Shown piece by piece: positions 1,459 to 29,284 of a DNA stretch of 32,080 bases; position 1 is the stretch's first letter; each line of letters opens with the position of its first letter. Below the pieces are notes generated by a model. The model ran no database searches. It saw only the letters and a program-made list of their open reading frames with translations, and was not told where the DNA came from. The stretch lies in the NCBI GenBank assembly GCA_020446525.1, contig JAGREO010000156.1, positions 1-32,080 of the forward strand, given 5' to 3'. This DNA is from Geminicoccaceae bacterium. GTDB lineage: Bacteria > Pseudomonadota > Alphaproteobacteria > Geminicoccales > Geminicoccaceae. Position numbers and translations under genes: made by a program.

Positions 1459-2280
1459 TCAACCCGAGGGAATTGCGGCGGTGTCGGTGAGTTTGTGACG
1501 GATTCGCTCGCGCGTCGCCTGATCGAAGAGGTGGGCGAACTTGCTGCCACGGGTGTCGACGATCTTGTTCTCCGGACGGATCTTCCAGGCCTCGTCGGGC
1601 CGGACGATGTCGTCGCGCCATGACGACACCTGCTCGAGCGACAGGCTGCCGGGCTCTAGGCCGACGAAGGCGGCCAGACCGTCGAGCGTCTCTTTTCGCC
1701 CCTCGACCAGATCGTCGTAGCGGACGACGAAGGTATCGCATCGCCCGCGATTGGCCTCGGTCACCCGTGCGTAACGGTTGTAGAGGCGAATCATCGCATC
1801 GAGATTGGCGAGCCATCCCCAATGGGCGGGATATTTCTCGAACGCATCGTAGAGCGAGGCGACGACGTCCGATCCGTCGCGCAGGATGTGGACGAACCGG
1901 GCACCGGGGACGAAGGTGCGAATTTCGTCCATGAAGAACATGTGCTCGGGTGTTTTCTCGAGCCAGCCGGCCATGCCGCGGATCGCCGCTTCGCGGCCGA
2001 GCAGGGTCGCGAAACGGCGACAGGCTTCCTCCAGGGAGGTGACGCCGGTCCAGTCGTGCCGGCCTTGGAGATCGTTGTTTTCCGCGATGAAGGCGAAGGC
2101 GTGCGCCACACGGGCCGGATCCAGACGGATGCGATCGAGCAGCCGCACCGGCCGTCGGCGGTGCAGGTGACGAAAGAAGTGCGTCTCCTTGACCGTATAG
2201 AGGGAAAGCTGGGTGGCGAGGATCGACTGCAACAGTGTCGTTCCCGAACGCGGGCTGCCGACCAGAAAGAGCTCGATCAT
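1459..2280 (-). CDS. Sulfotransferase family protein (Sulfotransfer_3-like)
   Basis: Predicted cytoplasmic PAPS-dependent sulfotransferase of 273 residues. The 5'-phosphosulfate loop is clear at residues 8-17 (GSPRSGTTLL). The 3'-phosphate-binding segment is at about 129-142 (FVHILRDGSDVVAS, with Arg134 and Ser137/Ser142 as candidate ligands). A WLEKTPEH stretch near 106-113 is typical of this subgroup. The ATG overlaps the stop of the upstream glycosyltransferase as ATGA (2277-2280), so the two are almost certainly translationally coupled. This pairing suggests the acceptor is a glycan or glycolipid made by that glycosyltransferase, which is inference. A different type of sulfotransferase occurs at 18877. 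Confidence 0.88.
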   Translation of the reverse strand: MIELFLVGSPRSGTTLLQSILATQLSLYTVKETHFFRHLHRRRPVRLLDRIRLDPARVAHAFAFIAENNDLQGRHDWTGVTSLEEACRRFATLLGREAAIRGMAGWLEKTPEHMFFMDEIRTFVPGARFVHILRDGSDVVASLYDAFEKYPAHWGWLANLDAMIRLYNRYARVTEANRGRCDTFVVRYDDLVEGRKETLDGLAAFVGLEPGSLSLEQVSSWRDDIVRPDEAWKIRPENKIVDTRGSKFAHLFDQATRERIRHKLTDTAAIPSG

Positions 2281-10467: not shown

Positions 10468-10591
10468 TCTAAATACCTATAATCTATATTATGACCAATA
10501 AAGGGTACTACTTCATCTAAAATAGGAATTGATACTGAAACAGGCTTATGATAGGATCAAGATCCAATCATCATCGACCTGGAGTTTGCTC
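10468..10591 (+). promoter_or_regulatory. A+T-rich leader and putative promoter of the 1177-residue protein gene
   Basis: This stretch is strikingly A+T rich in an otherwise GC-rich window. It holds TATAAT at 10478-10483, with TTGCCG at 10453-10458 as a possible -35 box (19-base spacing, longer than ideal). Next to it is an inverted repeat ATAAT-CTAT-ATTAT (10479-10492 region), and further down is the palindrome GGATC-AA-GATCC (10554-10565). A ribosome-binding TGGAG precedes ATG 10592. A xenogeneic-silencer or regulator binding site would fit, but this is inference. Confidence 0.5.
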
Positions 10592-11701
10592 ATGTCTGTC
10601 GTTCTTCCCGACGTCGTGACCACCACGCGCGGGACACCGATCCTGATCGATGTTCTCGCCAACGACGCCGACGGTCTCGTCATCGCCGGGTTCACCACGC
10701 CCGAGCACGGCACGGTCACCGTCGGCACCGCCGGCGGCTTCGTCTACACGCCGGCCGAGGGTTTCGTCGGTACGGACCTCTTCACCTACACGGTGCACGA
10801 TTCGCACGGCGGAACGGCGCAGGCCGACGTGACCATCGACGTGCAGGCGCCCAACGCCGCGCCGGTGGCACGGCCCGATGTCGTCTCGCTCGCCGCCGGC
10901 AGCAGCGTCGTCCTGCCGGTACTGGCCAACGACGAGGATCCCGACGGTGATCCCTTGACCATCGTCTCGATCAACATGCCGGCCTTCGGTGTCGTTCAGG
11001 TCCAGTCCGACCAGAGCATCCGCTACACGCCGCAGCCCGGGTTCACCGGCATCGACGGGCTCGGCTACACCATCGTCGACGGCCGGGGCAAACAGGCCCA
11101 GGCCGCCGTCACCTTCCACGTCGAGGCGGTCAACCGCCCGCCCGTGGCCAATCCCGATCGGGTCGCCACCACCGTCGGCCAGCCGGTGATCATCGACGTC
11201 GCCGCCAACGACAACGATCCCGAGGGACACGCGCTGCAGCCGGTGGCGTTCACCTTGCCCGACGCCGGCACCCTGACGCTCGGGACCGGCGGGGCGTTCC
11301 TCTACGTGCCGAACGAGGGTTTCGTCGGCACCGACGGCTTCGACTACACGATCCGCGATGCCGCCGGCGCCACCGCGACCGGCACCGTCTCGATCGAGGT
11401 CACCCGGGCCAACCGGTCGCCGGTGGCGGTCACCGACAGCGTCGAGACCGAGATCGCCACACCGGTCACGATCGTGCCGCTCGCCAACGACAACGATCCC
11501 GACGGCGATCCGATCCGCATCACGGCCCTGACCGTCCCGGCTCACGGCACGCTCGACATCACCGACGGCGGCCTCGTCTATCTTCCGGCCAACGGCTTCA
11601 CCGGCACCGATCATTTCACCTACGTCATCGACGATCATCGTGGCGGCACGGCCACCGGTGCGGTGGAGGTCACGGTGCTCGAGCCGTCGGCCGATCAGAG
11701 C
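10592..11701 (+). repeat. Four tandem cadherin-like protein repeats (about 90 codons each)
   Basis: The repeats cover residues of about 1-88, 89-181, 182-274 and 275-370. Each carries a LANDxD/AANDNDP calcium-type loop, a P.HGT or equivalent turn, a Y.P..GF.GTD.F.Y strand pair and a final V.V linker. Nucleotide similarity between units is moderate, so they are old duplications. A fifth copy lies near 12764-13040, separated by the DUF2341/LamG-like region. Confidence 0.82.
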
Positions 11702-14125
11702 ACCTTCGCCAACGGCTATCACGGCCGGCGCCGGCTGGTGGTGCCGCCGCGCGCCGCCCCCGCGGAGACGGTGCGCCTGGAGAGCGGGTTCGTCCTCTTC
11801 GTCCGGGAAAGCGGCGACTGGCTGAAATCGGTCGCTTCGGGCGGTCGGGTGGAACACGAGGCCGGTTTCGACATCCGCTTCGAGGCCGTCGACGGCACCG
11901 TCCTCGCGCACGAACTGATCGCGTATGATCCCGAACTCGGCCGGCTCGAGGCCTGGGTGCGGGTGCCGCTCTGGGACCGTTCCGCGTCGCTGCAGCTCTT
12001 CCTGTACTATGGCAAGTCGGACCTGGAGACCGCCGAGGCCGATCCGGCCGGCGTGTGGGCCGACTATCTGGCGGTCTGGGACGTCCAGAGCGGCATCGAT
12101 CGCAGCGGCCACGGACGCGATCTGACCTTGTCCGGGGTCGGCTCCGGTGTCGGCCCGGGCGGGGCGCAAAGCGGCCTCTTCGACGGCGATGCCACGGCCA
12201 CGCTGGCCGACGCCTCGTTTCTCGACGGGCTCGAAGCGCTCACCGTCCAGGCCAGGATCGAAGCCGCGGCGGTCGGTACCAACCGGGGCATCATCTCGCA
12301 GGGACCGATCACCGGCGAGGACGCCGATCAGGGCTTTCTCATCCGCTACGATGCCCAGGGTTTCTTCGGCGGTGCCGAGAGGACCATCCTCTGGCAGGTC
12401 GATACGGCGGATTCCTGGACCCGGATCGAAGCCGGCAACCGCAGCCAGTCGACCGACGAGCAACATCTGGTCGGCGTCTGGCAAAAAGGCCTGACCCCGG
12501 CGCTGTTCGCCCAGGGCCGTTCGCTCAACGCCACCAACGTCGTCGACCGGCGCGATGCACCGCTGGCCGTGGGCGCCGGCCCGATCACCATCGGTGCCGC
12601 CGCCAAGGACGGTCCCGATGGCGGCTGGCAGGGGCTCATCGGCGAGGTGCGTCTGCGCGCCTCCGCCCTGCCCGCGACGCTGATCGCCGCCGAATATGCC
12701 AACCAGAGTGCCCCCGATCTTTTCTACGGTCTGGGTGACGACGAGCGCGGCACCAACGGCGTCGCCTCGCCGGTGGCCGTGCCGTTCGATCTCGAGACCC
12801 TGGTCGGCCAGCGTATCGACCTCGACGTGGTCGCCGCGGCCCTGCCGGTCGAAGCCGCCCCGCCGCCGGTCATTCTTGCGCTCGATCAGCCGCAACAGGG
12901 CATCGTCTCGGTGGTCGACGGGATCGTCCGCTACGTTCCCAATGCCGGTTTCGTCGGCGAGGACGGCTTCACCTACACCCTGACCGACGGGATCAAGTCG
13001 AGCACCGCCCGGGTGCGCATCAAGGTGGTCGGCGCCGGCGTCCAGCCGGGCCACTGGATCTGGTCGTTCGCACCGCCCACCCTGCCGGCCGACCGCAACC
13101 GCGTGAAGACCTGGCGCATCGGCGAGCAGGCGCTCGAATCGATTTCGCTCGACGTCGACGACGTGCTGCTCGGCATCCTTCCCGACAGGCCCTATACCGG
13201 CACGGTCGCCTGGAAGACGCCGGAAATTCCCTGCCCCTTCGTGCTGGTCGGCGGCGACATGAAGCCCAAGAGGCAGCAGCAGGCCCATGCCTATGATCGC
13301 TGGCTCAACGGCGTGGCGATGCTGTTCCGCTGGAGCATGAGAAAGAACGTCTCCTATCGCGGCGGCCGGCCGTTCTATTTCCTCTCGCACATCCATGTCG
13401 ACTGGAAGGCCGACGACATCGTCTGGGCCGATTTCATGCGCGGCGGCATGCCGCAGCCGGCGGCCCTCGATCGCATGCCGCTGCTCTATCTGCAGAACCT
13501 CTATTTCAACGGCGGCTGTATCTTCTTCAACAACGATACCGGCAGGAATCCCGGCATGGAGAAGTTCCAGCCGCATTCCGACGTCTATCAGGGCGACGGC
13601 TACGACATCATCGGCGCCAGGATCGGCCGCTGCCGCATCGAATGGCGCGGTCAGTGCTGGTACACCTCGCCGGGCAGCGCCGGGCAGAAATACCAGATCG
13701 GGCAGAACTGGGTGATCAAGGACACGACCCATCACCCGCTGCCCCGGCCGTCCTACCATCCGGTCAGCCGCAAGATCGAATGGGTCAAGCCCTACAAGGC
13801 CACCGCCTATGACTTCGACAAGGGGCAGTATCCCTCCTTCGCCTTCGACAATATGTGGATGGTCATCGACCCCGAGGACGACGATCCGACCACCTATTTC
13901 GGTCCCAGGGGCGGGATCGGCGGCACCGTCGGTTATGACGCGTCCACCCGTCGGATGATCTTCCCGACGGCCAGGGGCGGCGCCAATCCCGAGCCGATCT
14001 ATGCCGGCACCGCCTATGCCGCACCGGCCGGCCAGGAGCCCTCGATCATCACCCCCTCCGACGTCGGCCTCGACTACCGCATCGCCGACGTCGACACGCT
14101 CTACGCCGCGTTCGGCCAGAACTAG
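10592..14125 (+). CDS. Large multidomain protein: cadherin-like repeats, DUF2341/LamG-like region, unassigned C-terminal domain
   Basis: Protein of 1177 residues. Residues 1-370 are four tandem cadherin-like (Big_9/cadherin_5 type) repeats of about 90 residues with LANDxDPDGDPL and GFVGTDxFTY signatures, whose Asp-rich loops probably bind calcium. About 371-465 looks like DUF2341 (WLKSVASGG, FLYYGKSD). About 490-710 resembles a LamG/concanavalin-type domain. A fifth, more divergent repeat follows (about nt 12764-13040). The last 355 residues are rich in Trp, His and Asp, with YLQNLYFNGGCIFFNND and PHSDVYQGDGYD, the latter reminiscent of parallel beta-helix glycan enzymes; I cannot assign it. 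The repeats point to a surface or secreted protein, yet no Sec or Tat signal is seen at ATG 10592 (TGGAG eight bases upstream). A type I-like or other export route is possible. Confidence 0.8.
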   Translation: MSVVLPDVVTTTRGTPILIDVLANDADGLVIAGFTTPEHGTVTVGTAGGFVYTPAEGFVGTDLFTYTVHDSHGGTAQADVTIDVQAPNAAPVARPDVVSLAAGSSVVLPVLANDEDPDGDPLTIVSINMPAFGVVQVQSDQSIRYTPQPGFTGIDGLGYTIVDGRGKQAQAAVTFHVEAVNRPPVANPDRVATTVGQPVIIDVAANDNDPEGHALQPVAFTLPDAGTLTLGTGGAFLYVPNEGFVGTDGFDYTIRDAAGATATGTVSIEVTRANRSPVAVTDSVETEIATPVTIVPLANDNDPDGDPIRITALTVPAHGTLDITDGGLVYLPANGFTGTDHFTYVIDDHRGGTATGAVEVTVLEPSADQSTFANGYHGRRRLVVPPRAAPAETVRLESGFVLFVRESGDWLKSVASGGRVEHEAGFDIRFEAVDGTVLAHELIAYDPELGRLEAWVRVPLWDRSASLQLFLYYGKSDLETAEADPAGVWADYLAVWDVQSGIDRSGHGRDLTLSGVGSGVGPGGAQSGLFDGDATATLADASFLDGLEALTVQARIEAAAVGTNRGIISQGPITGEDADQGFLIRYDAQGFFGGAERTILWQVDTADSWTRIEAGNRSQSTDEQHLVGVWQKGLTPALFAQGRSLNATNVVDRRDAPLAVGAGPITIGAAAKDGPDGGWQGLIGEVRLRASALPATLIAAEYANQSAPDLFYGLGDDERGTNGVASPVAVPFDLETLVGQRIDLDVVAAALPVEAAPPPVILALDQPQQGIVSVVDGIVRYVPNAGFVGEDGFTYTLTDGIKSSTARVRIKVVGAGVQPGHWIWSFAPPTLPADRNRVKTWRIGEQALESISLDVDDVLLGILPDRPYTGTVAWKTPEIPCPFVLVGGDMKPKRQQQAHAYDRWLNGVAMLFRWSMRKNVSYRGGRPFYFLSHIHVDWKADDIVWADFMRGGMPQPAALDRMPLLYLQNLYFNGGCIFFNNDTGRNPGMEKFQPHSDVYQGDGYDIIGARIGRCRIEWRGQCWYTSPGSAGQKYQIGQNWVIKDTTHHPLPRPSYHPVSRKIEWVKPYKATAYDFDKGQYPSFAFDNMWMVIDPEDDDPTTYFGPRGGIGGTVGYDASTRRMIFPTARGGANPEPIYAGTAYAAPAGQEPSIITPSDVGLDYRIADVDTLYAAFGQN

Positions 14126-14271: not shown

Positions 14272-15324
14272 ATGTTGCGACGCGATCTGCTGCAGGGCCT
14301 GGGGGCGGGCGCGGTCGGCCTTCTGCTGCGGCCGTCGAGGGCGGGCGCGGCCGGTCTGGCCGTGGCACCGGGATCGCGGAGCGGACTGCCCTGGCGTTCC
14401 GGGGTGGCGCAGAACGATCCCGCCTTTGCCGAGCAGTTTGCCCGCTGGCGCGGCCGGCCGATCGATCTGGTGACCCACTGGGGCCGCTGGGATCATTTCG
14501 ACGACGTGCTCGACCTGCCGCTCGACGAACGTTTCACCGGCTTCTTCTCGACCGCCTGGAAGGCCTATCACCACGTGCCGTTGCCGGCACTGGTGAGCTT
14601 TTCCTGCTGGCCGAAGAAGGAGGCGGCGGTGCCCAAGCACGATCCGTCGCGCTGGGACGCGGCGGCCGCCGGCGAACTCGATACCGCCTTTCGTGCGACC
14701 GCCCGCAAGTTCGCCCTGATGCTCGATGCGAGCGCCCATCCCTGGATCGCCGTCCGGCTGTTCTGGGAGGCCAATGGCGGCTGGTACCCGCACGCGATCA
14801 AGGGGCGGCACGAAGCCTACAAGGAGGTGCACAGGCGTTTCGCCGACATGCTGCGCGAGGAGGCGGCCAGACGCACCGCCAAGCCGCTCCATATCAGCTG
14901 GGATCCGTCGCAACAGGGCCGCGAGGACGTCGAGGCCATCTGGCCCGGCGGCGACCATGTCGATGCCGTCTGTCCGTCGCTGCACGACAAATGGGCGCAC
15001 CGGTCGGAGGAGGAGTTCGACACATGGTCGCGCTCGATGGACGCCAACGGCCCGGTCGGCCTGCGGGCCTGGCTCGACTTCGCCCGCAGCCGCGACAAGC
15101 CCCTGGGACTCTCCGAATACGGTATCCTGACCCGGGCCGACCGCAAGTCGAAGGTCGGCGGCGACAATCCGGTCTATATCGAGGGCTGTTTTCGCTTTCT
15201 GAAAGAGAATGCCAGCTCGATCGTCTGGGAGACCTACTTCAATTCCAGTGACGGCCGGCTCGAGCCACGTGACGACGTTCCGCTCGCCGCCGCCGCCTAC
15301 AAGCGGCTCTGGGGCGGCGCCTGA
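14272..15324 (+). CDS. Tat-exported GH26-like glycoside hydrolase
   Basis: Predicted secreted glycan hydrolase of 350 residues. The N-terminus MLRRDLLQGLGAGAVGLLL is a twin-arginine-type signal ending near AGA. The catalytic TIM-barrel region has the acid/base candidate Glu166 in RLFWEANGGWY and the nucleophile candidate Glu282 in LGLSEYGI, the two-Glu arrangement of clan GH-A families such as GH26 (beta-mannanase type). The start ATG 14272 has GAGAGGAC upstream; the open frame further 5' lacks the signal. It is clearly homologous to the hydrolase encoded tail to tail at 15439 (the same Glu spacing within two residues, the same PGGD.VD and NPV.IE segments). The substrate may be the locus polysaccharide, which is inference. 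Confidence 0.8.
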   Translation: MLRRDLLQGLGAGAVGLLLRPSRAGAAGLAVAPGSRSGLPWRSGVAQNDPAFAEQFARWRGRPIDLVTHWGRWDHFDDVLDLPLDERFTGFFSTAWKAYHHVPLPALVSFSCWPKKEAAVPKHDPSRWDAAAAGELDTAFRATARKFALMLDASAHPWIAVRLFWEANGGWYPHAIKGRHEAYKEVHRRFADMLREEAARRTAKPLHISWDPSQQGREDVEAIWPGGDHVDAVCPSLHDKWAHRSEEEFDTWSRSMDANGPVGLRAWLDFARSRDKPLGLSEYGILTRADRKSKVGGDNPVYIEGCFRFLKENASSIVWETYFNSSDGRLEPRDDVPLAAAAYKRLWGGA

Positions 15325-15402: not shown

Positions 15403-15438
15403 GTCGTCCCATCGCGCTCGTGCGTGCGCGAGGTGATT

Positions 15439-17178
15439 CTAGAAGAGTCTGCGGTAAGCCTCGGCAGCCCTCGGATTGTGGTGCTCGGGGTAGATCACGT
15501 GGATGTCGGGATTGCCGTGCGTGCAGTTGAAGTAGGCTTCGTAGGCGATGCTTCCCGAATTGTCCTTGAAGAACTTGTACATGTTCTCGATGAACACCGG
15601 ATTGTCACCGTTGGAGCCGTGCTTGTTCTCGTCGCGCGTACCCCACTCGGCGACCGCGAGTTTCTTGCCGCGGGACTTGGCGAAGGAGAGCCAGTTCTCG
15701 ATGCCGTGCGGGTCGGACGTGCTGCCATTGTACTCGGAGCGATTCCAGGCGGCCTGGGTGCGGCTGGGCAGCACGTTGTCGTAGTAGCTGACACCCACAT
15801 AGTCGACCACGTCGCCGCCCGGATAGAGGTCAGCCGCGGTCTTGCCGTTGCGGGTATCCTTGGCGTTGTGCCAGTCGATCTTCAGACCGGGCGCCACCGA
15901 CCGCAGTGTGCGCGCCACCTTCTGAAAGCAGCTCTTGTAGCCGCTCGGATCCTTGACGCCGCTCCAGGCGTACCAGTCACCATTGGCTTCCCAGCCCAGG
16001 CGGATGACGATATCGCCCAGACCCTGGTTCTTGAGCTGCGAGGCGATCTCGCGGAAATAGCCGTCATACTGGCCGTTCCTGCACGCGCCGAAATTGTTGC
16101 CGCCGTTCTGCGGGAAGAGCGGCACGCCGATCGACGCCAGGCGGCCTTCCGAACGCGCCCGCTTGAACTTGTTCAGGCTGCCGTTCTTGAAGTAGTTGAG
16201 CAGATCGTTCCAGTTGCCGGTATATTTGGCCCAGCCGATCACCGCCTCGACCTTGCTGCCGCGCCAGTTGCCGAAAGCGTCCGCGTCGCTGCAGGCGACA
16301 CCGGAGATCCAGGAGCCGCCGCCCGACGAGGAGGGTGGATCGTAGGAGGGGGTGTAGCTCTCGTTGTTGCTGTTTTGGTTGCCGTTGTTTTTGTTATTGT
16401 TCTTTTTCGCACTCTCGGTCGAATAGGAACCCGAGCTTCCGGCGATCCTCTTCCACTTGTTGCAGAGATCGAGATTGATCTTGGCGTACTTCTGGTTACC
16501 GGCTTTCTTCTTCTCCTCGTAGCGGCCGCAATAGAGGTCGACCCGCTTTTGCGCCTCGGAGTTGCCCGAGTTGGAAACCTTCGAGTAGCTCTTGTTGGAG
16601 TTGGAACCGCCGGATCCCGAATTGCCGGCGATCCTCTTCCATTTGTTGCAGAGATCGAGATTGATCTTTGCATACTTCCAGTTTCCGGCCTTCTTTTTCT
16701 GTTCGTAGCGGCCGCAATAGAGCTCGACCCGCTTTTGCGCTTGAGATTTGCTCGAGCTGGAAACCTTCGAATAATTCTTTTCGGAACCGGACTTACCGGC
16801 GATCTTCTTCCACTTGTTGCAGAGATCGAGGTTGATCTTTGCGTACTTCCAGTTTCCTTCCTTCTTCTTCTGTTGGTAGCGCGAGCAGTACATGTCGACC
16901 CGGCGCTGCGCCTCCTTGTTGGAAGCGGCGGCGAGCCACAGGCGCGGCGTTTGTTCGGCGGTATCCCGCACGATCATCGAGGACGGGGAACCGGTGGTGA
17001 AGACCGCCGGCTGGTGCAGGCCGGCCGTCGGCGCCGAAGCGGCGGCGTCGGACGAAAAATGCGGGAAGGCATGCGCGGCTGCGGGAAGAAGGGAGACGGA
17101 GAGGAGAAGGCCGAGAACCACGCTGGTCGTGGAACATCCGCCTCTCGTCGAGGGCTCGATCTGCTTTCGGGCTGGCAT
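15439..17178 (-). CDS. Sec-exported GH26-like glycoside hydrolase with three Lys/Cys-rich repeats
   Basis: Protein of 579 residues. A Sec signal (hydrophobic 18-32, cleavage near AHA at 35-37) follows a strong AAGGAG before ATG 17178. Three repeats of about 45 residues occupy about 88-132, 145-189 and 207-251. Each contains YCxRY, KKKxGN and KYAKINLDLCNKWK, with two cysteines 22 apart. An Asn/Lys/Ser-rich linker (255-290) leads to the catalytic domain (about 290-579), with candidate acid/base Glu397 (RLGWEANGDWYAWS) and nucleophile Glu511 (LAVAEWGTRDENK). I do not recognise the repeat family. Its positive charge suggests binding to an anionic, possibly sulfated, glycan, and the Cys pairs may form disulfides (inference). 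The catalytic domain is a paralogue of the convergent 14272 gene. Confidence 0.82.
   Translation of the reverse strand: MPARKQIEPSTRGGCSTTSVVLGLLLSVSLLPAAAHAFPHFSSDAAASAPTAGLHQPAVFTTGSPSSMIVRDTAEQTPRLWLAAASNKEAQRRVDMYCSRYQQKKKEGNWKYAKINLDLCNKWKKIAGKSGSEKNYSKVSSSSKSQAQKRVELYCGRYEQKKKAGNWKYAKINLDLCNKWKRIAGNSGSGGSNSNKSYSKVSNSGNSEAQKRVDLYCGRYEEKKKAGNQKYAKINLDLCNKWKRIAGSSGSYSTESAKKNNNKNNGNQNSNNESYTPSYDPPSSSGGGSWISGVACSDADAFGNWRGSKVEAVIGWAKYTGNWNDLLNYFKNGSLNKFKRARSEGRLASIGVPLFPQNGGNNFGACRNGQYDGYFREIASQLKNQGLGDIVIRLGWEANGDWYAWSGVKDPSGYKSCFQKVARTLRSVAPGLKIDWHNAKDTRNGKTAADLYPGGDVVDYVGVSYYDNVLPSRTQAAWNRSEYNGSTSDPHGIENWLSFAKSRGKKLAVAEWGTRDENKHGSNGDNPVFIENMYKFFKDNSGSIAYEAYFNCTHGNPDIHVIYPEHHNPRAAEAYRRLF
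16426..16917 (-). repeat. Three Lys/Cys-rich repeat units inside the hydrolase gene
   Basis: The units lie at about 16783-16917, 16612-16746 and 16426-16560. Core nucleotides, for example around TTGCAGAGATCGA on the plus strand, are almost unchanged between units, pointing to recent duplication or conversion. Each unit encodes Cys-x21-Cys with Lys-rich stretches around it. Linkers between units are Ser/Gly/Lys rich and vary in length. Confidence 0.9.
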
Positions 17179-17527
17179 GTAGACTCCTTGGTTCTTCGTC
17201 GAGCGAAGGATTCTTGGTTGAGTGGGACGATCGATCCGGGATGGATGTCGTCCGTTTCGAGGGATAGACGGGCGAGTATGAGATCTATTCCCGAAAAACT
17301 AACCTGAGGTTGATTCTTTTTTATCGCCGACGCACGACGGCCCTTCGACCAGCGCCGCAGTTCCTCCCTCGAGCCGCACGTGGCGGCCTCGTGGCGGAGG
17401 TGACCGCGTCTCGACTGTTTGACCGGCGTCCGGATTGCGCTATCGCTCGCGCCGTCCTTTCGCGGAGCCCGTGCCGGTCTTGCGAGCGCTCCGGACACTG
17501 CTCACCCGGCCACGGCTCACCCGGACG
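17179..17527. promoter_or_regulatory. Divergent spacer between the repeat hydrolase and the flippase
   Basis: About 350 bases with no convincing gene. It must hold the promoter of the minus-strand hydrolase gene and probably that of the flippase operon. An 11-bp palindrome AACCTGAGGTT (17301-17311) beside a T-run (CTTTTTTAT) is the best candidate operator. No good consensus -35/-10 pair was found. Open frames here on the plus strand extend the flippase N-terminus but look unlike the family. Confidence 0.4.
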
Positions 17528-18880
17528 ATGCCCAGATTGCTTTCGCGCCTGCGCTCGCTTTCGTCGCGCGACGGCTTCGGCCGGCGGCTGGCGACGCTCG
17601 GCAGCGGCACGATCCTGGGCCAGGCCTGTCTCGTCGTCAGCGCACCCCTGATCACCCGCCTGTTCACGCCCGAGCAGTTCGGTGTGCTGGCGGTCTTCGG
17701 CGCCCTGGTCAGCATGGCGGCGGTGGTCATGGCGTTGCGCTACGAGTTCGCCGTGCCGGCCCTGGCATCCGACGAGGAGGCTTTCGCGACGACCTCTCTG
17801 GGCATGGTCGCAGCCTTACTTCTGGCTCTGCTCCTCTCACTGGCGATCGCTCTCGCCGGTGTGCCGCTCGCGGTACGGCTCGACCTCGAGGTCCTGACTC
17901 CGTTCTTGTGGATCCTGCCGCCGCTGCTTCTGGCCGCCGGCTGGTGCAACGTGCTGATGCACGCCTCGATCCGCCGCGGCACCTATCACCACAACGCCAA
18001 GAGCACCTTCCTGCACTTCGCTTCTCAGGCGGCCTCGCAACTGCTCTTCGGGGTCATGGCCCTGGGGACGGCCGGGCTGATCTGGGGCTATGCCGCCGGT
18101 CAGTTCGCCAGGCTCGCTTATCTGGCCCTCACCCTGCCGAGCGACGAGCGCCGCCGCCTGCAGGCGGTCCGGCCGGCGGCGATGTGGCGCGAGGCCCGCC
18201 GGCACTGGCGCTATCCCGTCTTCGGCGCCACCTCCGGATTGATGCAGAGCGCCGCCCAGATGCTGCCGGCGATCCTTCTGGCCAGCCTCTACGGTACCGC
18301 CACGGCCGGCCTCTTCGCCCTCGGGCAACGGATGCTCGGCATGCCGGTCCGGGTCTTGAGCGAAGCCGCCAGCCAAGTGTTTCTGGGCACCGCCGGCCGG
18401 CTCGACGGCGCGGGCCGCTACCGGTTGTTCCGGCGCACCGTTTGGCGTTTCCTCGCTCTGGGGATCCTCGGCGCCCTGCCGATCCTGCTGGCGGGGCCCA
18501 CCCTCTTCGCCTTCGTCTTCGGCGAACCATGGAGAGCGGCCGGGGCGATCATGCAGATCCTGATGCCCTTCTACCTCATGCGCTTTTCGGTCGTGCCCAT
18601 CTCGCAAATACTCAACTTGACCGGGCGTCAGCACCATCATCTGCTGGCGTCGCTCACCATCACGGGTGCGCTCGCCGCGAGTTTCGCGCTCGGCTGGTGG
18701 TTGGCGCTCGACGCGTACACCACGATCCTGCTCTACAGTCTGGGCTCGAGCGCGTCCTTCCTGCTCTATCTGCTGCTGGCCTGGCGTGCCGCCCTGGCCG
18801 GCGTCGCCGACCCCGCACCTTCGCCCGCACCTTCGCCCGCACCTTCGATTGCCGATCCCAAGGAACGACCTCCATCATGA
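17528..18880 (+). CDS. wzx: Wzx-type polysaccharide flippase (oligosaccharide flippase / MATE-like)
   Basis: Inner-membrane transporter of about 450 residues with roughly twelve hydrophobic segments. It would flip lipid-linked repeat units to the periplasm for polymerisation. Typical features are the N-terminal GSGTILGQACLVVSAPLITRLFTPEQFG, the mid-protein amphipathic loop with MWREARRHWRYPVFGATSGLMQ, and GLFALGQRMLGMPVRVLSEAASQVF. The start is uncertain: ATG 17528 fits the family but has no clear ribosome-binding site, and the frame is open to 17435. The C-terminal tail contains PAPSPAPSPAPS, encoded by a 12-bp tandem repeat, and overlaps the next start (ATGA at 18877-18880). The substrate is unknown. 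Confidence 0.85.
   Translation: MPRLLSRLRSLSSRDGFGRRLATLGSGTILGQACLVVSAPLITRLFTPEQFGVLAVFGALVSMAAVVMALRYEFAVPALASDEEAFATTSLGMVAALLLALLLSLAIALAGVPLAVRLDLEVLTPFLWILPPLLLAAGWCNVLMHASIRRGTYHHNAKSTFLHFASQAASQLLFGVMALGTAGLIWGYAAGQFARLAYLALTLPSDERRRLQAVRPAAMWREARRHWRYPVFGATSGLMQSAAQMLPAILLASLYGTATAGLFALGQRMLGMPVRVLSEAASQVFLGTAGRLDGAGRYRLFRRTVWRFLALGILGALPILLAGPTLFAFVFGEPWRAAGAIMQILMPFYLMRFSVVPISQILNLTGRQHHHLLASLTITGALAASFALGWWLALDAYTTILLYSLGSSASFLLYLLLAWRAALAGVADPAPSPAPSPAPSIADPKERPPS
18815..18847 (+). repeat. 12-bp tandem repeat (GCACCTTCGCCC), 2.75 copies
   Basis: The copies start at 18815, 18827 and 18839. They encode Pro-Ala-Pro-Ser units in the cytoplasmic tail of the flippase, about 30 bases before the sulfotransferase start. 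Copy-number change would keep the frame. Confidence 0.85.
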
Positions 18881-19764
18881 ACGACACCGCCCTGCCCGAT
18901 TTTCTGATCATCGGTGCCATGAAATCGGGCACCACCTCCCTGTGGGCCGATCTGAGGGCGAACGACGCCTTTTTCCTGCCGCAGGACAAGGAGCCCAACG
19001 TCCTGGTCAAGCAGACGACGCCCGAGGCGATCCGGCGCGACTATGCCGATCTCTTCGCGGCGGCGCGGCCGGGACAGATTCGCGGTGAGGCCTCGACCTG
19101 GTACACCAAGCGGCCGATGTTCGACGGCGTCGTCGAGCGGGCCCATGCGGCACTCGGGCCGGAACTGCGCCTGGTGATGATCGTCCGCGATCCGGTCGAA
19201 CGGCTGATCAGCCACCTCAAGCACCATCTGGTGATGGGTCTGGTGCGAAGCGAGGAGTGCGATCGGGCCGTGCTCGAGGATCCGCGCTACGTCGCCTTCA
19301 GCGATTACGGCATGCAGTTGCGCCCCTGGATCGAGACCTTCGGCCGCGAGCGGCTGTTGTGCCTGAGCCTGGACGCCTTCATGGCCGACCGCCTGGGCGA
19401 GGTGCGCCGGGTCGGGAGGTTTCTGGGCGTCGACCGGCCGCAAGAGCTGGTGATCGACGGCGAGATCAGGAACGAAGGCACGCAATTGCGCAGCAACGCC
19501 CGGTCGATCTGGCGCAAGGCCACCCGCTCGAAGCTCTACAAACGCCATTTGCGGGCGATGATCCCGGACCGCCTGCGCGACGGCGTGCGCGACGTGCTCC
19601 TGCCGGTGCGGCCGGTGCCGCCCTTGCATCTCGCACCCTCGACCATGGCCGAGATCGAGGGCCGCCTGGCCCATGTCGCGGATGATCTGCACCAACTGGT
19701 CGGGCTCGACATGCGCGTGCATCGTCGCCGGTCGGCCACGGTCGAAGTGCTCGAAACCTGCTAG
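18877..19764 (+). CDS. Sulfotransferase (Sulfotransfer_1 / heparan-sulfotransferase-like)
   Basis: PAPS-dependent sulfotransferase of 295 residues. The 5'-phosphosulfate loop is IIGAMKSGTTSLW (11-23). The 3'-phosphate segment is MIVRDPVERLISHL (101-114, with Arg104 and Ser112), the form seen in glycan sulfotransferases of the heparan-sulfate type. GEASTWYTKRP (70-80) matches the family substrate-side motif GE.S..Y. The ATG overlaps the flippase stop (ATGA), with AAGGAACGACCTCC upstream, so the two are coupled. Position inside the Wzx/Wzy operon makes the repeat unit the likely acceptor (inference). It differs in motif type from the sulfotransferase at 1459. Confidence 0.9.
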   Translation: MNDTALPDFLIIGAMKSGTTSLWADLRANDAFFLPQDKEPNVLVKQTTPEAIRRDYADLFAAARPGQIRGEASTWYTKRPMFDGVVERAHAALGPELRLVMIVRDPVERLISHLKHHLVMGLVRSEECDRAVLEDPRYVAFSDYGMQLRPWIETFGRERLLCLSLDAFMADRLGEVRRVGRFLGVDRPQELVIDGEIRNEGTQLRSNARSIWRKATRSKLYKRHLRAMIPDRLRDGVRDVLLPVRPVPPLHLAPSTMAEIEGRLAHVADDLHQLVGLDMRVHRRRSATVEVLETC

Positions 19765-19803
19765 AGCCGGCCGCGCCCTCCTTTCGAGCCACGAGGACGA
19801 GCC

Positions 19804-21558
19804 ATGTCTCTTTCGACCGCACCGACCGCGACCGATCGGAGCCGGGCCCGCAACCGGGTCCAGGGCCGGGCCGGCCGTCCGCTCGATGCGGCGCGCCGCA
19901 CCTGGTCCGGCGCCCTGTTGCTGTTCTTCGGCTGTCTCGCCTTCTACATGCTCAATCTCGACCGCATGCCGCATCCGGACGAATTGCACCACGTGCTGGC
20001 GGCTAGGAGCCTCTTGGAGACCGGTGAGCCGCGGATCGCCGAGGGCCTCTATACCCGCGGCCTCGCTTATAGCTGGATGGTCGCCGCCAGCTTCTGGGCA
20101 TTCGGCGAGGGTCTGGCGCAGGCCCGCCTGCCCTCGGTTCTCTGCATGGCCCTGCTGGTGCCGCTGGTCTTTCTCTGGTTGCGCAGCCAGGCGGGACCGC
20201 TGGCCGCCTGGACGGGCGCGCTGCTGCTGGCGACCTCGCCCTTCGCCGTCGAGATCGCCCAGTTCTCCCGTTTCTACGCACCGCAGACGCTGCTCTTCTT
20301 CGTCGGCGCCGTGCTCGTTCATGCGGGCTTCGCGCCGCTGCGGGAGTCTGGTCGGGCGCCGTTCGACCCGGGCAGGCGCGGGTTGCTGTTGGCGGCGGGC
20401 GCCGTCGCGCTGCTCGGGGCGATCTATTTTCAGCAGACCAGCCTGTTCGGCGTGCTGGGGATCGGCGTCTGGGTCGGCTGCATCGTCCTGCCCTGGCTGT
20501 TCGGCAGTGGCGAGCCCTTCGTCGCGATCACGCCGCGCATCCGCCGGCTGGCGGCGGCAGCTTTGCCGCCCCTGGCCGTGGCGGTCTTCGTTCTGGCCTG
20601 GTGGCTCGGCTTCATCGACCATATCGTCGAGCTCTATCGCTGGGCACCGGTGTTCAATCAGAGCCGGGCCGACGAGTTCTGGTTCTATTTCGTCTCCTAT
20701 TTTCTCTTCTATCCGACCTTGTGGACGCTCGGCGGCCTTCTGGTGCTGGCGGCGGCGGGCCGATGGCCGCGTCCCACCTGGTTCGCGCTCTCGGTCTTCG
20801 TCGTCTCCTTCCTCCTCAATTCCTTCGCCGCGGCCAAGGCCACGCGTTATCTGGCTTATGCGCAACCCTTCCTGTTCGTGCTCTGGGGCATGGGCCTGGC
20901 GGCGACGGTCCCGTTCGTCGCCCGCCTGCTCGCCGAGCTGCGCGACGGACTGACGCAGAGCGTGAAGGGGCCGTCCATCCTCGTCCGCCGGCGTCTGGCG
21001 GGAGGACTTCTGGCGACGGCGCTGCTCATCGTGCTGCTGGCCAATCCCTTTTGGCTGCGCAGCGCCAGCATGATGGCCGACATCGCCATTCCGCCGGAAA
21101 AGCCGACGACCAACTGGCCCGCCGCTCGTGCGGCCCTGACGCCCTGGCTCGAGGAAGCCGAGATCGTCGTCACCACCGAAGAGCTCGGCACCCTCTATTT
21201 TCTCGGCCGCTACGACATCCGCTACAGCCCCTCCAAGCTCGGAGAGCTCGAGCAGGCCACGGGCCAGCCGGTCGCCGTCGATCCGCGCACCGGCCGCCCG
21301 GTGATCGCCGGCCTCGAGGAGATGGAGGTCGTCCTCGACTGCTTCGCCAGCGGCCTGCTGCTCGGGCCGATCGAGAGCTGGGGCGCGCCGGAACTGATCG
21401 ACCGGGACCTCGTGGCGCTTCTCGAGCGTCGCACCCGGGCCGTCGAGCTGCCGGAGCGCAGTCACATGTTCGCCCGCGTCTGGCGTCATCCCCCTCGAAG
21501 CGGAGGCGATCCGGCCTGTGCGCCGCTCGAAAACCTCCTCGCCGGCCGATCACCATGA
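19804..21558 (+). CDS. GT-C membrane glycosyltransferase (PMT_2/GT39-like)
   Basis: Integral membrane protein of 584 residues with about ten or more hydrophobic segments between residues 35 and 420, followed by a soluble C-terminal domain (about 425-584). The first external loop carries the acidic pair of GT-C enzymes (Asp59, Glu60 in MPHPDELHH), and SRFYAPQTLLFF resembles the second conserved loop. Such enzymes transfer sugars from polyprenyl-phosphate donors on the periplasmic side. The start ATG 19804 has GAGGACGAGCC upstream. Its stop overlaps the next start (ATGA). It could decorate the polymer or a lipid-linked unit; the donor is unknown. A non-catalytic membrane protein is less likely given the Asp-Glu pair. 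Confidence 0.8.
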   Translation: MSLSTAPTATDRSRARNRVQGRAGRPLDAARRTWSGALLLFFGCLAFYMLNLDRMPHPDELHHVLAARSLLETGEPRIAEGLYTRGLAYSWMVAASFWAFGEGLAQARLPSVLCMALLVPLVFLWLRSQAGPLAAWTGALLLATSPFAVEIAQFSRFYAPQTLLFFVGAVLVHAGFAPLRESGRAPFDPGRRGLLLAAGAVALLGAIYFQQTSLFGVLGIGVWVGCIVLPWLFGSGEPFVAITPRIRRLAAAALPPLAVAVFVLAWWLGFIDHIVELYRWAPVFNQSRADEFWFYFVSYFLFYPTLWTLGGLLVLAAAGRWPRPTWFALSVFVVSFLLNSFAAAKATRYLAYAQPFLFVLWGMGLAATVPFVARLLAELRDGLTQSVKGPSILVRRRLAGGLLATALLIVLLANPFWLRSASMMADIAIPPEKPTTNWPAARAALTPWLEEAEIVVTTEELGTLYFLGRYDIRYSPSKLGELEQATGQPVAVDPRTGRPVIAGLEEMEVVLDCFASGLLLGPIESWGAPELIDRDLVALLERRTRAVELPERSHMFARVWRHPPRSGGDPACAPLENLLAGRSP

Positions 21559-23046: not shown

Positions 23047-24369
23047 TTGATCGGCATCCGCCGGCCGAGCGACCGGGCGCACGGGCAGGCCTTCGCCCGA
23101 CCGTCGCTCGTCGGGCAGGAACGGCAGCGCGGGCTGATCGGGGTGATCGCCCGGCTGCTCTCGCACCTCTTCTCCTTCGAGGTGGTGTTCGGCCTCTATC
23201 TCTATTCCAACGCGCTCAAGCTGATCATTCCGCTGCCGCCACTGCCGGCCGACGAGACCGTGCTCCTGGCCGCCTTGAGCATCCTGATCGGCGGGACGGT
23301 GATGGTGCGCGAGGGGCTCCGGGTCGACGGGCTGGTGACGGTCGGCGCCTTTCTGCTCTTCGTCACCTATGCCTTCGTCAGTTGGAGCTGGTCGGCATCC
23401 ACGATGCTGGCGCCGCGCTATCTCACCTATTACGCCACCTTCCAGTTCTGGAACATCGCCGCCGGGGCCCTGATCCTGGCCAATTCACGCGAGCGCATGG
23501 TGCGCTTCGTGCTGGTCATCCTGACGCTCTCGACCTTCATCGCCCTGGCCGGGATCTACATCTACCTGACCTATGGCAGCTTTCGCTTCTATCAGGGCTT
23601 CGAGGGCAGCGGCCGCGTCTACAATCGCTGGGGCTATGCCGCCAGCATGGGCGTGGTCATCGCCTTCGCCATCCTCGCCTATTCGTCCAGCTTCAGCCTC
23701 AAGCAACTGCTCTCGCTCGTCCTGCTGGGCGTTCTCGGCTATTTCATCCTGGTCGCCAGCAGTCGCGGCTCGCTGCTCGCCGTCATCGGCGGCTGTGCCG
23801 CCATCCTGGCGACCGGCATGCCGAAAATCTCACGCGACCAGAGCATTCGGCTGAACCGCGCCCAGATCATCGCCGTCGTCGTCATCGTCTCGATCGTCGC
23901 GGTGATCGCCGTGCAATTGACGATGGGCACCTCGTTCGCCACCTTCCGCCGATTCGTAAAGCTCTACGAGCAGGCGCAGAACGTCAATCTCGTCTTCGGC
24001 GCCAATCGCTTCAGCTATTGGGATGCGGCGCTGCGCTACTGGTATTCCGCGCCGCTGTTCGGACACGGCATCGGAAACTTCTCCATCCTGTTCTACAGCA
24101 AGGAAATCCTGGGCTCGCACGCGCACAACCTCGTGCTCGAGCTCCTGGCCGACATGGGCTTCGTCGGTCTTTGCCTGTTCGGCGTGCTGCTCTGGTCGGC
24201 CTTTCGCCATCTGAGCTTCGTCCGGCTCTCGAACGATCCGCTCCTGCTGGTGGTCTTCATGCTGGCCATCTCGCGTCTGACCGTCGGCATGTACAGCACC
24301 GAGCTCGCGGCGATGGACGAGCTCTTCGTGTGTATCGGCATGCTCACCCTGCGCCCGCCCGAGCGCTGA
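23047..24369 (+). CDS. O-antigen ligase / Wzy-type polysaccharide polymerase
   Basis: Polytopic membrane protein of about 440 residues with around ten to twelve hydrophobic segments. The Wzy_C region is visible: VASSRGSLLAVIGG (about 235-248), followed after a hydrophobic helix by a periplasmic loop and then GHGIGNFSILFYSKEILGSHAHNLVLELLADMG (split across about 337-370), the classic ligase/polymerase pattern with catalytic-type Arg and His. It would join repeat units delivered by the flippase, or ligate them to a carrier. The start is uncertain: TTG 23047 has only GGGCGGGG-like context, and a GTG about 95 bases further in is possible. It follows the GT4 gene after a 205-base gap in which I see nothing else. 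Confidence 0.82.
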   Translation: MIGIRRPSDRAHGQAFARPSLVGQERQRGLIGVIARLLSHLFSFEVVFGLYLYSNALKLIIPLPPLPADETVLLAALSILIGGTVMVREGLRVDGLVTVGAFLLFVTYAFVSWSWSASTMLAPRYLTYYATFQFWNIAAGALILANSRERMVRFVLVILTLSTFIALAGIYIYLTYGSFRFYQGFEGSGRVYNRWGYAASMGVVIAFAILAYSSSFSLKQLLSLVLLGVLGYFILVASSRGSLLAVIGGCAAILATGMPKISRDQSIRLNRAQIIAVVVIVSIVAVIAVQLTMGTSFATFRRFVKLYEQAQNVNLVFGANRFSYWDAALRYWYSAPLFGHGIGNFSILFYSKEILGSHAHNLVLELLADMGFVGLCLFGVLLWSAFRHLSFVRLSNDPLLLVVFMLAISRLTVGMYSTELAAMDELFVCIGMLTLRPPER

Positions 24370-25726: not shown

Positions 25727-26596
25727 CTATCCCTTGACCGCGCCCAGCGTCAGGCCGCGGACGATGTAGCGCTGGGCGATCAGGGCGATCAGCACCGGCG
25801 GGATCATGGCGATCATCGCGCGCACCGCCATGAACCAGAACTGCACGCCGCGGGTGTCGATGGCACCGGCCATGTGCACCGGCACGGTGATCGCCTCCTT
25901 GGACGCGATGGTCAGCGCGAAGATGAACTCGTTCCAGGTGAAGGCGAAGATGATGAGACCCGTCGCGGCGATCGAGGGGGCGGCCAGCGGCAGGGCGATG
26001 CGCCAGAAGGCCGAGACGTGGCCGCAGCCGTCGACCATCGCCTGCTCTTCCAGTTCCACCGGCAGATCGAGGAAGGTCTGGCGGACGATCACCACGACGA
26101 AGGGCAGGACGAAAGTGGCGTTGACCAGGATCAGCGCCAGATGGGTGTCGAGCAGGCCCACCGCGCGCATCATCAGATAGAAGGGGATGACGACGGCGAC
26201 CGGCGGCAGGATGCGCTGGGAGAGGAACCAGATGGTGATGTCGCGGCCGGAGACCAGCCGGTAGCGGAAGCGGGCGAGCGCATAGGCGGCCGGCGTGCCC
26301 AGCGCCAGCGCCAGGAGTGAGGCCAATCCGGCGATGATCGTGCTGTTGGCGAGCGCCTGGCGGGTCTCCGGCGTGAACGCCTGCTCGATCCAGTTGGCCA
26401 GTGTCGGCTCGAAGTGGATCCAGGGAATGCCCAGCCCGACCACGGTGAAAGTGTCCATCGGATTGCGCAGGGAGGTCGAGAGCGACCAGTAGATCGGAAA
26501 GAAGAAGATCATCGCCACCAGCACGGCGGCCAGCGAAGCCAGGGCATAGGTGAACGGTTCTCGCCCGCCGGCTCGTGTTTCCGCCGGATCAGCCAT
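25727..26596 (-). CDS. Carbohydrate ABC transporter permease (MalG-like)
   Basis: Inner-membrane permease of 289 residues with six predicted transmembrane helices. The conserved cytoplasmic loop that docks the ATPase is EEQAMVDGCGHVSAFWRIALPLAAP, split as the EAA region (about 175-200). The N-terminus resembles MalG/UgpE partners (FFFPIYWSLSTSLR). It starts within the last codons of the MalF-like gene (8-base overlap) and is probably cotranscribed with it. Together they form the channel for a sugar or sugar-derived substrate bound by the product of the 27623 gene. The specificity is unknown. Confidence 0.92.
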   Translation of the reverse strand: MADPAETRAGGREPFTYALASLAAVLVAMIFFFPIYWSLSTSLRNPMDTFTVVGLGIPWIHFEPTLANWIEQAFTPETRQALANSTIIAGLASLLALALGTPAAYALARFRYRLVSGRDITIWFLSQRILPPVAVVIPFYLMMRAVGLLDTHLALILVNATFVLPFVVVIVRQTFLDLPVELEEQAMVDGCGHVSAFWRIALPLAAPSIAATGLIIFAFTWNEFIFALTIASKEAITVPVHMAGAIDTRGVQFWFMAVRAMIAMIPPVLIALIAQRYIVRGLTLGAVKG

Positions 26597-27536
26597 AGGT
26601 CTGCCTCAGGCGCCTGAAGAAGAGGGTGACGACGATGCTGACCACGATCAGAAGAACGAAGGCCATGGCACTGGCATAGCCGAGATCGAAGAAGCGCAGC
26701 CCCGTCCTGAAGGCGAACAGCGAATAGGGCTGGGTGGCGACGCCCGGGCCGCCGCCGGTCATGGCGAAGGGGATGTCGAACAGCTTGAGGGCTTCGGCCA
26801 GACGCAACAGGAGCACGATGACGATGGTCGGCTGCAGCACCGGCAGGAGGATCCGCCAGAGCAGATCGAGGGCCCCGGCCCCGTCGATCCGTGCCGCCTC
26901 GATCAGCTCGTCCGGCACACCCTGCAGGGCAGCGAGAAAGACGAGAAAGCAGAACGGCGTCCACTGCCAGATGTCGACGAGGATGACGGAAAAGAGCGCC
27001 CAGCCGGGATCGGAGAGCCAGGGCACGCCCGTCCAGCCCAAGGGACCGCCCTCTTCGTAGAAGATGGTGAAGAAGCTGTAGGCGACGGCGATCGGTGTCG
27101 CGAAGATCGGCAGGATCATCACCGTGCGAAAAAACGGCCGGCCGAACAGCTTTCGATTGAACAGCACCGCCAGAAGAAAGCCCAGAACCAGTTCGAGCGG
27201 CACCGCGACGAAGACGAAGACGAGGCTGACCCGGATCGCCTCGTGCAGTTGCGGGTCGCTCCGCATCCGCGCGAAATTGTTCCATCCGACGAAGGTGGTG
27301 ACGTTGGTCTGATCCTTGATCACCACGTTTCTGGTGCGCGGCGTGCCGTCGCTCTTGAGCACCGGCTGGCCCGCCTCGTCGAGCACCGGCTCCTTGACCC
27401 GCGTCACCGACGTCGTCTGGTCGATCTTCACGAAACTCAGATAGAGCGAATAGCCGAGCGGAAAGACGGTGAACGCCAGCACCCAGAGCACCGCCGGCAT
27501 CAGGAACAGAAAACGTATCCGACTGGTCCAGCGCAT
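26589..27536 (-). CDS. Carbohydrate ABC transporter permease (MalF-like)
   Basis: Inner-membrane permease of 315 residues. After the first helix comes an insert of about 60 residues (KIDQTTSV to FVGWNNFARM), longer than in many family members and probably periplasmic. The ATPase-docking EAA loop is ELIEAARIDGAGALDLLWRILLP (about 215-237). LFDIPFAMTGGGPGVAT is the conserved segment before the last helices. It overlaps the MalG-like gene. An ATG at 27536 preceded by GAGAG fits. A GC-rich stem-loop lies between this gene and the binding-protein gene, which usually means the binding protein is made in excess. Confidence 0.92.
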   Translation of the reverse strand: MRWTSRIRFLFLMPAVLWVLAFTVFPLGYSLYLSFVKIDQTTSVTRVKEPVLDEAGQPVLKSDGTPRTRNVVIKDQTNVTTFVGWNNFARMRSDPQLHEAIRVSLVFVFVAVPLELVLGFLLAVLFNRKLFGRPFFRTVMILPIFATPIAVAYSFFTIFYEEGGPLGWTGVPWLSDPGWALFSVILVDIWQWTPFCFLVFLAALQGVPDELIEAARIDGAGALDLLWRILLPVLQPTIVIVLLLRLAEALKLFDIPFAMTGGGPGVATQPYSLFAFRTGLRFFDLGYASAMAFVLLIVVSIVVTLFFRRLRQTYG

Positions 27537-27557
27537 CTCTCGTCAGTTTTCCCGACG

Positions 27558-27587
27558 GGGCCGGCCCCCCGAAGAAGGAGCCGGCCC
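27558..27587 (-). terminator. Intergenic stem-loop between binding-protein and permease genes
   Basis: GGGCCGGC (27558-27565) and GCCGGCCC (27580-27587) form an 8-bp arm pair with a 14-base loop. On the minus strand no T-run follows, so it is more likely an mRNA-stabilising or attenuating hairpin than a full terminator. Confidence 0.5.
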
Positions 27588-27622
27588 GCGATCGTCGTGC
27601 ATCGGACAATCAGGGCGGAGAA

Positions 27623-29284
27623 TCAGGGCGCGTAGCCGATCGCCTCTTGATAGTCCTTCAACTGGCTCTCCCGGCCGATGCGCTTGGTGACCGGCTCCCA
27701 GGCCGCCGCGGTGTCGTCGAGCGCCTGTTGCGCCGTCTTCGAGCCGGACATCGCCGCCGACAGATTCTTGTCGAGGATGTCCCAATATTCGAAGCTGCCG
27801 GGAATGCGCAGATAGGTCAGGCTGGTCGGCGCGTAGAACAGCTCCTTGTAGGCGTGGGTATAATCCTCGGCGTCTTTGGCGTCCCAGCCGGCGGCGACAT
27901 AGTCCTCGACCTTGGCCGTGCCGCCGTCCTTTTCCAGGAACTGATAGGAAAAGCCCGGATCGACGCCGTCCCAGCCGTACATCGCCATCATCTTGCTGAC
28001 CGGCTCGATCGCCATCAGGGCGAGGAAACTGTAGGCGGCCTCGGGATTGGCCGAAAAGTTCGAGACCACGCCGTGCCACGAGCCGCCGGTGGTGTTGCCG
28101 ACGACGTTGGGCGGATCGGCCGCGACGAACTCCTTCCTGGTCATGTCGTAATATTCGTCGGAGCCCGGCAATTGCGCCGAGGCGCAGTCACCGCGGACGA
28201 CCGAGCGGCTCTCGTCCTGGCAGAGCGCACCGACGTCGCCCCAGGAATAGACGAAGACCGCCTTGCCTCTCAGAAAATAGTCCCAGGCCTCGCCGAGCGA
28301 CCAGCCGACCTGTGCCGCGGGGCCGGTCTCGTGCAGCGCCTGGAGGAACTCCAGCGCCTTGACGTGACCCGGACCGTTGATCAGCGGGGTCATGTCGGTC
28401 GGATCGAACCAGTAGACATTGTGCGTCCGGTCGACCGCGTCGCCCGGATTGACGACGAAGGAGGCCGAGAGCGACTGGAAGTGATAATGCCCCTGCTCAC
28501 CGACCTTGAGGTGCAGCACCGTGCCGCTGTCCGGTTCGGCATCGTGCTCGTCCCAGTTCTTGCCGTTGAAATATTTCGAGATGTCGAGCAGTTGCTGCCA
28601 GGTCGCCGGCGGCACCGGCATGTCGTAGCCATATTCGGCCTTGAACGCCGCCTGGTGCTCGGGATCCTCGAGCACGCTGCGGCGGTAATAGAGCACCTGG
28701 CCGTCGGCGTCGTTGAGCACGCCATAGGCCGCGTCGCCCCAGTGATGCAGGGTCTTCAGGGAAGGCGGCATGACGTCGTAGGACCATTGCGGGAAATCGC
28801 CCGAGTCCATCAGCTCACCGATCTCGAAGCCGTAGCCGGCCGGCGCGATGTCGCCATACCAGAAGGCCCCGACCATGAAGGCGTCGTACTGGCCCGTGCC
28901 GTTGCGCAGATCGAGCATCATCTTGGTGTAGTGCTCGGCAAAAGGCAGCTCGACGATCTCGACCTTGCCGCCCGAGAGCTCCTCCCAGATCGGCCGGAAC
29001 GAGTAGAGCGGGCCGGAGATGCCGCCATTGGGTCCCGCACCGTTGACCGTGACCGAGATGGTGACGTCCTCGAACGGCTGCTCCTCGGGCCCGAAGAGCG
29101 CGCCCAGCTGCTCCTGCGGCACGGTGATCCGGCGATCGTCATATTCCGGTCCGAGCTTGAGCGTGACCGTGCCGTCGTCGTTCCAGTCGACATGCTCACC
29201 GGCGCCTGCCTGCGGGCCGTAAAGAACCGCCGTCAGCGCCAGAGCCGTCATCGTGCCGTTCAGGACGTGCCCGTGCCGTCGCAT
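27623..29284 (-). CDS. Extracellular solute-binding protein of carbohydrate ABC importer
   Basis: Periplasmic binding protein of 553 residues, larger than most family 1 members. A Sec signal (MTALALTAVLYGP, cleavage near AGA) follows ATG 29284, which has GGGGAGGACGAAGG directly upstream. Family features include the hinge region with YDAFMVGAFWYGDIAPAG, YGVLNDADGQVLYYRRSVLED, and GKAVFVYSWGDVGALCQD. Aromatic and acidic residues around the cleft (FWYGD, SWGD, GWDG) suggest a sugar ligand, possibly an oligosaccharide given the size; this is inference. It heads the operon with the two permeases. The ATPase gene is not in the window and may be shared from elsewhere. Confidence 0.9.
   Translation of the reverse strand: MRRHGHVLNGTMTALALTAVLYGPQAGAGEHVDWNDDGTVTLKLGPEYDDRRITVPQEQLGALFGPEEQPFEDVTISVTVNGAGPNGGISGPLYSFRPIWEELSGGKVEIVELPFAEHYTKMMLDLRNGTGQYDAFMVGAFWYGDIAPAGYGFEIGELMDSGDFPQWSYDVMPPSLKTLHHWGDAAYGVLNDADGQVLYYRRSVLEDPEHQAAFKAEYGYDMPVPPATWQQLLDISKYFNGKNWDEHDAEPDSGTVLHLKVGEQGHYHFQSLSASFVVNPGDAVDRTHNVYWFDPTDMTPLINGPGHVKALEFLQALHETGPAAQVGWSLGEAWDYFLRGKAVFVYSWGDVGALCQDESRSVVRGDCASAQLPGSDEYYDMTRKEFVAADPPNVVGNTTGGSWHGVVSNFSANPEAAYSFLALMAIEPVSKMMAMYGWDGVDPGFSYQFLEKDGGTAKVEDYVAAGWDAKDAEDYTHAYKELFYAPTSLTYLRIPGSFEYWDILDKNLSAAMSGSKTAQQALDDTAAAWEPVTKRIGRESQLKDYQEAIGYAP

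Follow-up and report, generated by a model that had tools for sequence, protein, structure and literature searches.

Gene organization of the locus

The window (the whole stretch of DNA that was analysed, 32,080 nucleotides) carries genes of exopolysaccharide (EPS) synthesis and, among them, a minus-strand gene for a 579-residue protein that combines three cationic repeat units with a C-terminal GH26 domain and is predicted to be secreted. The genes that concern us here are listed below; a GT4, a methyltransferase and a phosphoglucomutase gene also lie in the window.

1459..2280, minus strand: sulfotransferase (Pfam Sulfotransfer_3, 2e-25)
10529..14125, plus strand: Big_9/cadherin-repeat protein (Pfam Big_9, 1.2e-95)
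14272..15324, plus strand: second GH26-like protein, Tat-like leader MLRRDLLQG (36% domain identity)
15439..17178, minus strand: repeat-bearing GH26 protein, 579 aa, predicted to be secreted (translation, AAGGAG, GH26 homology in frame)
17435..18880, plus strand: Wzx-type polysaccharide flippase (Pfam Polysacc_synt_3, 5.3e-15)
18863..19764, plus strand: sulfotransferase-like protein, start approximate (Sulfotransfer_3, 3.3e-8; Sulfotransfer_1, 4.9e-8)
19804..21558, plus strand: PMT_2 membrane glycosyltransferase (Pfam, 6.5e-6)
23047..24369, plus strand: Wzy / O-antigen ligase-type polymerase (Pfam Wzy_C, 7.9e-15)

The assignment of the repeat-bearing GH26 gene to a Wzx/Wzy EPS locus is well supported. 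The gene lies among a flippase, a polymerase and glycosyltransferases, and this setting recurs in relatives: GH26 adjoins Wzx, PMT, Wzy and Big_9 genes in two related genomes (G013 and G026), and Wzy and PGM genes in a third (G016). Wzx/PMT/Big_9 loci are also present in G025 and G018, where GH26 was not found. Matches to the PMT_2 gene occur in 17 of the 31 family genomes.

The preliminary description had pointed to a sulfotransferase in the locus, and we found two genes of the Sulfotransfer_3 type. The pair formed by the second of these and the PMT_2 gene (18863-21558, plus strand) recurs in G013 and G016, hinting that these bacteria make sulfated polysaccharides. PF13469, widespread in the genomes examined, includes sulfotransferases with other acceptors, and this breadth weakens the case for a sulfated polymer.

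At least five related genomes also have the Big_9/cadherin protein near Wzx/PMT, which suggests that it is a surface or matrix protein of the EPS system. Beyond the EPS genes lies a sugar-type ABC importer (25727-29437, minus strand), made up of a 604-aa binding protein and a pair of permeases. GH26 genes are found near ABC-importer permeases in five relatives (G007, G017, G023, G027 and G030), and the importer may take up the products of a glycan-cutting GH26.

The repeat-bearing protein and its catalytic domain

The repeat-bearing gene starts with ATG, with AAGGAG 5 nt upstream, and its product has the following parts.

17068..17178, minus strand: putative Sec signal peptide, aa 1-37 (translation, by eye)
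16792..16929, minus strand: repeat unit 1, aa 84-129, predicted helical hairpin, net charge about +9
16621..16758, minus strand: repeat unit 2, aa 141-186, predicted helical hairpin, net charge about +8
16435..16572, minus strand: repeat unit 3, aa 203-248, predicted helical hairpin, net charge about +6
16315..16434, minus strand: Asn/Ser/Gly/Pro-rich linker, aa 249-288 (translation)
15442..16314, minus strand: GH26 catalytic domain, aa 289-579 (PF02156, PDB profile, Foldseek)
15988..15990, minus strand: predicted acid/base Glu397 (LGWEANG; the same in all 6 domains of the alignment and lined up with the GH26 motif)
15646..15648, minus strand: predicted nucleophile Glu511 (VAEWG; invariant in 6 aligned domains)

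The putative leader passes from a basic n-region through a hydrophobic core to AHA followed by Phe, with cleavage placed by eye after AHA at residue 37, and a short spacer separates it from the three units. An antisense open reading frame (15424-17307, plus strand) was dismissed because the homology, the leader and the ribosome site are all on the minus strand.

What had been called a GH26-like enzyme now stands on firmer ground, and its assignment as a genuine member of GH26 is well supported. Residues 289-579 matched PF02156 with 32.6 bits (cut-off 20.2; E 7.1e-8). A profile built from six homologues retrieved 31 PDB sequences, mostly GH26, with a mannanase as the best match (1.9e-13) and CtLic26A at about 1e-12. 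Furthermore, Foldseek with the AlphaFold2 model of the domain (pLDDT 68.8, pTM 0.74) placed CtLic26A in its top three positions (E 2.6e-11). The domain shares the TIM-barrel fold with the family (CtLic26A lichenase, Man26 mannanases) and also both catalytic glutamates, expected after strands beta-4 and beta-7 and predicted here as Glu397 and Glu511, although structural alignment with solved members shows identities of only about 15-17%. The second GH26-like gene (14272-15324) is convergent to this one, and its product keeps both glutamates and has no Pfam GH26 match of its own.

When 60 genomes were searched with the catalytic domain, 12 gave a match, the source genome included (the L012 homologue is truncated where its contig ends), and the repeats were absent from all of the other 11. 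The survey of relatives that had been proposed earlier recovered the enzyme in related genomes and the repeats in none of them. Two homologues carry Lys/Arg-rich N-termini of a different, non-repeated kind: L005 (G022 C196; KKKKKRVKKQRAKKK), with a net charge of +15, and L007 (G016 C27), with +8. In G013 the GH26 lacks the repeats, and its N-terminus is uncharged (net 0). We know of no GH26 with an N-terminal module like the one described here; the enzyme itself appears to be an ordinary GH26, and its accessory repeat module is apparently undescribed.

Sequence, age and constraint of the repeat units

Each unit is 46 residues long, and Cys-x21-Cys, KKKxGN and KYAKINLDLCNKWK occur in all three, exactly as had been claimed. 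The best 46-mer self-match reached 40 of 46, and 100 composition-preserving shuffles gave no more than 13 of 46, so the repeats are not a product of chance. Since the linkers between units also share a YSKVS motif, the homologous period is longer than the unit, at about 57-62 aa. A repeat-finding program returned a 174-nt unit at 100, 85 and 70%, its copies spaced 186 and 171 nt apart.

Pairwise, the units are identical at 33, 33 and 38 of 46 residues (72-83%) and at 105, 104 and 118 of 138 nucleotides (75-86%), well short of the near identity in DNA reported before. Nei-Gojobori (NG86) estimates, which rest on few sites and are rough, gave dS of 0.53-0.62 for the whole unit and 0.42-0.63 for the core, dN of 0.087-0.24 and 0.045-0.15, respectively, and dN/dS of about 0.1-0.4. 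Tandem Repeats Finder reported no array at the repeat region. With DNA identity of 75-86%, dS of about 0.5 and no such array, the units did not expand very recently, and the earlier description of the expansion as recent was overstated; gene conversion could have lowered dS between the units. Thirty of the 46 columns are invariant across the three units, and the protein sequence of the repeat is evidently under purifying selection.

Predicted fold and charge

The structure prediction suggested in the preliminary description produced one two-helix hairpin per unit. In a single-sequence AlphaFold2 model of the repeat region (mean pLDDT 77.8, pTM 0.30), six helices, mostly with pLDDT above 90, form three separate hairpins divided by low-confidence linkers, a confident prediction that each unit is an independent hairpin. 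The turn falls at Gly-Asn. Residues C98 and C120 and their equivalents stand 10-12 residues either side of this turn and at equal height; as one cysteine comes about 10 residues before the turn and the other about 11 after it, the two would be expected to lie opposite one another on the two helices, and this placement would suit one cross-helix disulfide per unit.

The repeats proved as strongly positive as supposed, with a net charge of +26.7 at pH 7 over 167 aa (pI about 10), compared with +5.1 for the catalytic domain. The units carry conserved aromatic residues (Tyr14, Tyr18, Tyr29 and Trp40, plus Trp27 in units 1-2), most of which do not vary from unit to unit. A helical-wheel estimate places Tyr18, Tyr29 and Trp40 on the buried face of the hairpin.

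Searches for relatives of the repeat

The repeat had been put forward as unrecognised, and no library that we tried identifies it. Profile searches gave no confident Pfam match, the one partial match, to DUF3470, being judged a chance likeness. No relatives were found in NCBIfam or among PDB sequences, in plasmids, phages or viral contigs, or in 31 genomes of the family, 289 of the class and 398 of the phylum (about 700 in total), and two peptide-pattern scans over 84,980 species found none either. Because the profile consists of three similar rows and the scans require near-exact peptides, relatives below about 40% identity could be missed by these searches. Within its own genome the repeat occurs in this one protein only. 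Foldseek with the repeat region returned generic designed and helical proteins only (best E 0.29).

Several candidates were rejected. Ten weak matches of the profile in the class genomes (E 0.01-0.1) were judged to be chance; eight of the ten were aligned and proved partial, and the only near-complete Cys-x21-Cys match sits in a 43-aa frame. DUF3470 is the C-terminal piece of the ferredoxin FdxA, and the repeat resembles it over a helix of 18 residues (18 of 42 positions match). Added together, the three weak matches reach 30 bits and pass the cut-off, whereas a single unit scores 13.5 against 23.2, so that the score is inflated by adding three copies of one chance helix match. Unlike FdxA, the repeat protein has no ferredoxin domain, and it scores 16.5 bits against the 135 needed for the FdxA (7Fe ferredoxin) family. 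A likeness to TPR (GN..YA..NL..C) was set aside, as there is no Pfam TPR match and the model shows isolated hairpins strung on linkers instead of a solenoid. Assignment as a dockerin or CBM likewise found no Pfam match, and Pfam and NCBIfam scans showed no described CBM family matching the repeat.

Proposed role and alternatives

We propose that the protein is an EPS-processing GH26 glycanase that a cationic hairpin tether holds on the cell's own anionic polymer or the surrounding matrix, a reading to which we give a probability of about 0.5. The secreted enzyme would act as an endo-glycanase, trimming or remodelling the polymer that its own Wzx/Wzy locus produces. Its three flexibly linked, disulfide-stapled hairpins would serve as a multivalent electrostatic tether, retaining it on an anionic polymer, probably sulfated or bearing uronic acids, or on the matrix around the cell, and cutting would thereby stay local. 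The substrate and the tether function are read from sequence and gene context, and we infer the anionic target from the charge of the hairpins and the sulfotransferases of the locus. Positive charge is by itself insufficient to demonstrate binding, and binding of a sulfated or otherwise anionic glycan, put forward as an inference in the preliminary description, keeps that standing here. The different Lys-rich N-termini of L005 and L007 lend weak convergent support to a cationic tether. The main counter-evidence to an anionic target comes from G013, where a sulfotransferase gene stands beside the same PMT gene and the GH26 is uncharged and free of repeats, which argues against a simple link to sulfate. 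Since the other genomes searched lack the repeat, covariation with sulfation lends an anionic tether no support.

The cationic, multivalent anatomy would also fit if the hairpins anchored the enzyme to the envelope of the cell (to lipid A or core phosphates, the surface of the outer membrane or some other anionic polymer of the envelope) and not to its EPS substrate, and secreted enzymes working at the cell are generally known often to need a surface tether. We consider such anchoring unlikely, however, given that Pfam shows no match to the known anchor domains LysM, SLH and PG_binding and that the related GH26 enzymes of the same loci lack the repeats. Attachment to a protein partner, such as the adjacent Big_9 protein, is quite unlikely in our view. 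Dockerins (the CBM10-type of anaerobic fungi and bacterial type I) are small tandem modules on glycanases including GH26, as the units are here, and their place on linkers next to a GH26 is reminiscent of the fungal dockerins of GH26 mannanases; the Big_9 protein is, moreover, a conserved neighbour. Yet CBM_10/fungal dockerin and Dockerin_1 gave no match even at E up to 10, the unit is an all-alpha hairpin with only two cysteines and no Asp/Asn calcium-loop signature, and the Big_9 protein is also present where the GH26 lacks repeats (L045).

The conserved aromatics raise the idea that the hairpins bind a neutral glycan as a CBM, their charge being incidental, and tandem CBMs are generally known to be common on glycoside hydrolases. 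But three of these aromatics are estimated to be buried, no CBM family matches, and the Lys/Arg excess is both strong and conserved, which leaves this idea with little probability. Similarly improbable is a lineage-specific, ligand-free spacer arm that would simply hold the catalytic domain away from the cell or maintain its solubility. It would accord with the failure to find relatives of the repeat anywhere searched and with the lack of repeats in the GH26 homologues, whereas the invariant cysteines and core residues, dN well below dS and the confident hairpins point to selection on a defined fold.

Parallels and significance

A close parallel to an EPS-processing GH26 is the wps-1 cluster of Actinoplanes missouriensis, which encodes the GH26 enzyme WpsE, two sulfotransferases, Wzx and Wzy (PMC13390465). 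In that paper, deletion of wpsE gave some normal and some abnormal sporangia, the shape being partly disturbed; its authors state that they know of no earlier characterisation of a Wzx/Wzy cluster that includes a GH26, and sulfated bacterial EPS outside cyanobacteria is only now proposed (PMC13390465). Our locus resembles wps-1 in combining a GH26 and two sulfotransferases with a Wzx/Wzy system; it differs in belonging to another phylum and in its tandem cationic repeats, of which the passages on wps-1 make no mention (PMC13390465). In Pantoea stewartii, the EPS-locus hydrolase WceF slowly cuts its own EPS and also agglutinates with it (PMC7949094). WceF is encoded in an EPS cluster, as the repeat-bearing GH26 is, but has a trimeric beta-helix, tailspike-like fold and no cationic hairpins.

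A further, doubtful suggestion is that the 46-aa unit represents a new all-alpha class of CBM, a disulfide-stapled cationic hairpin that works in tandem, recognises bacterial sulfated EPS and directs the GH26 to it. To our knowledge, few all-alpha accessory modules target anionic polymers. The repeat module is known from one genome only. The locus and its relatives represent a second case of a Wzx/Wzy cluster with a GH26 enzyme, in a lineage different from that of Actinoplanes.
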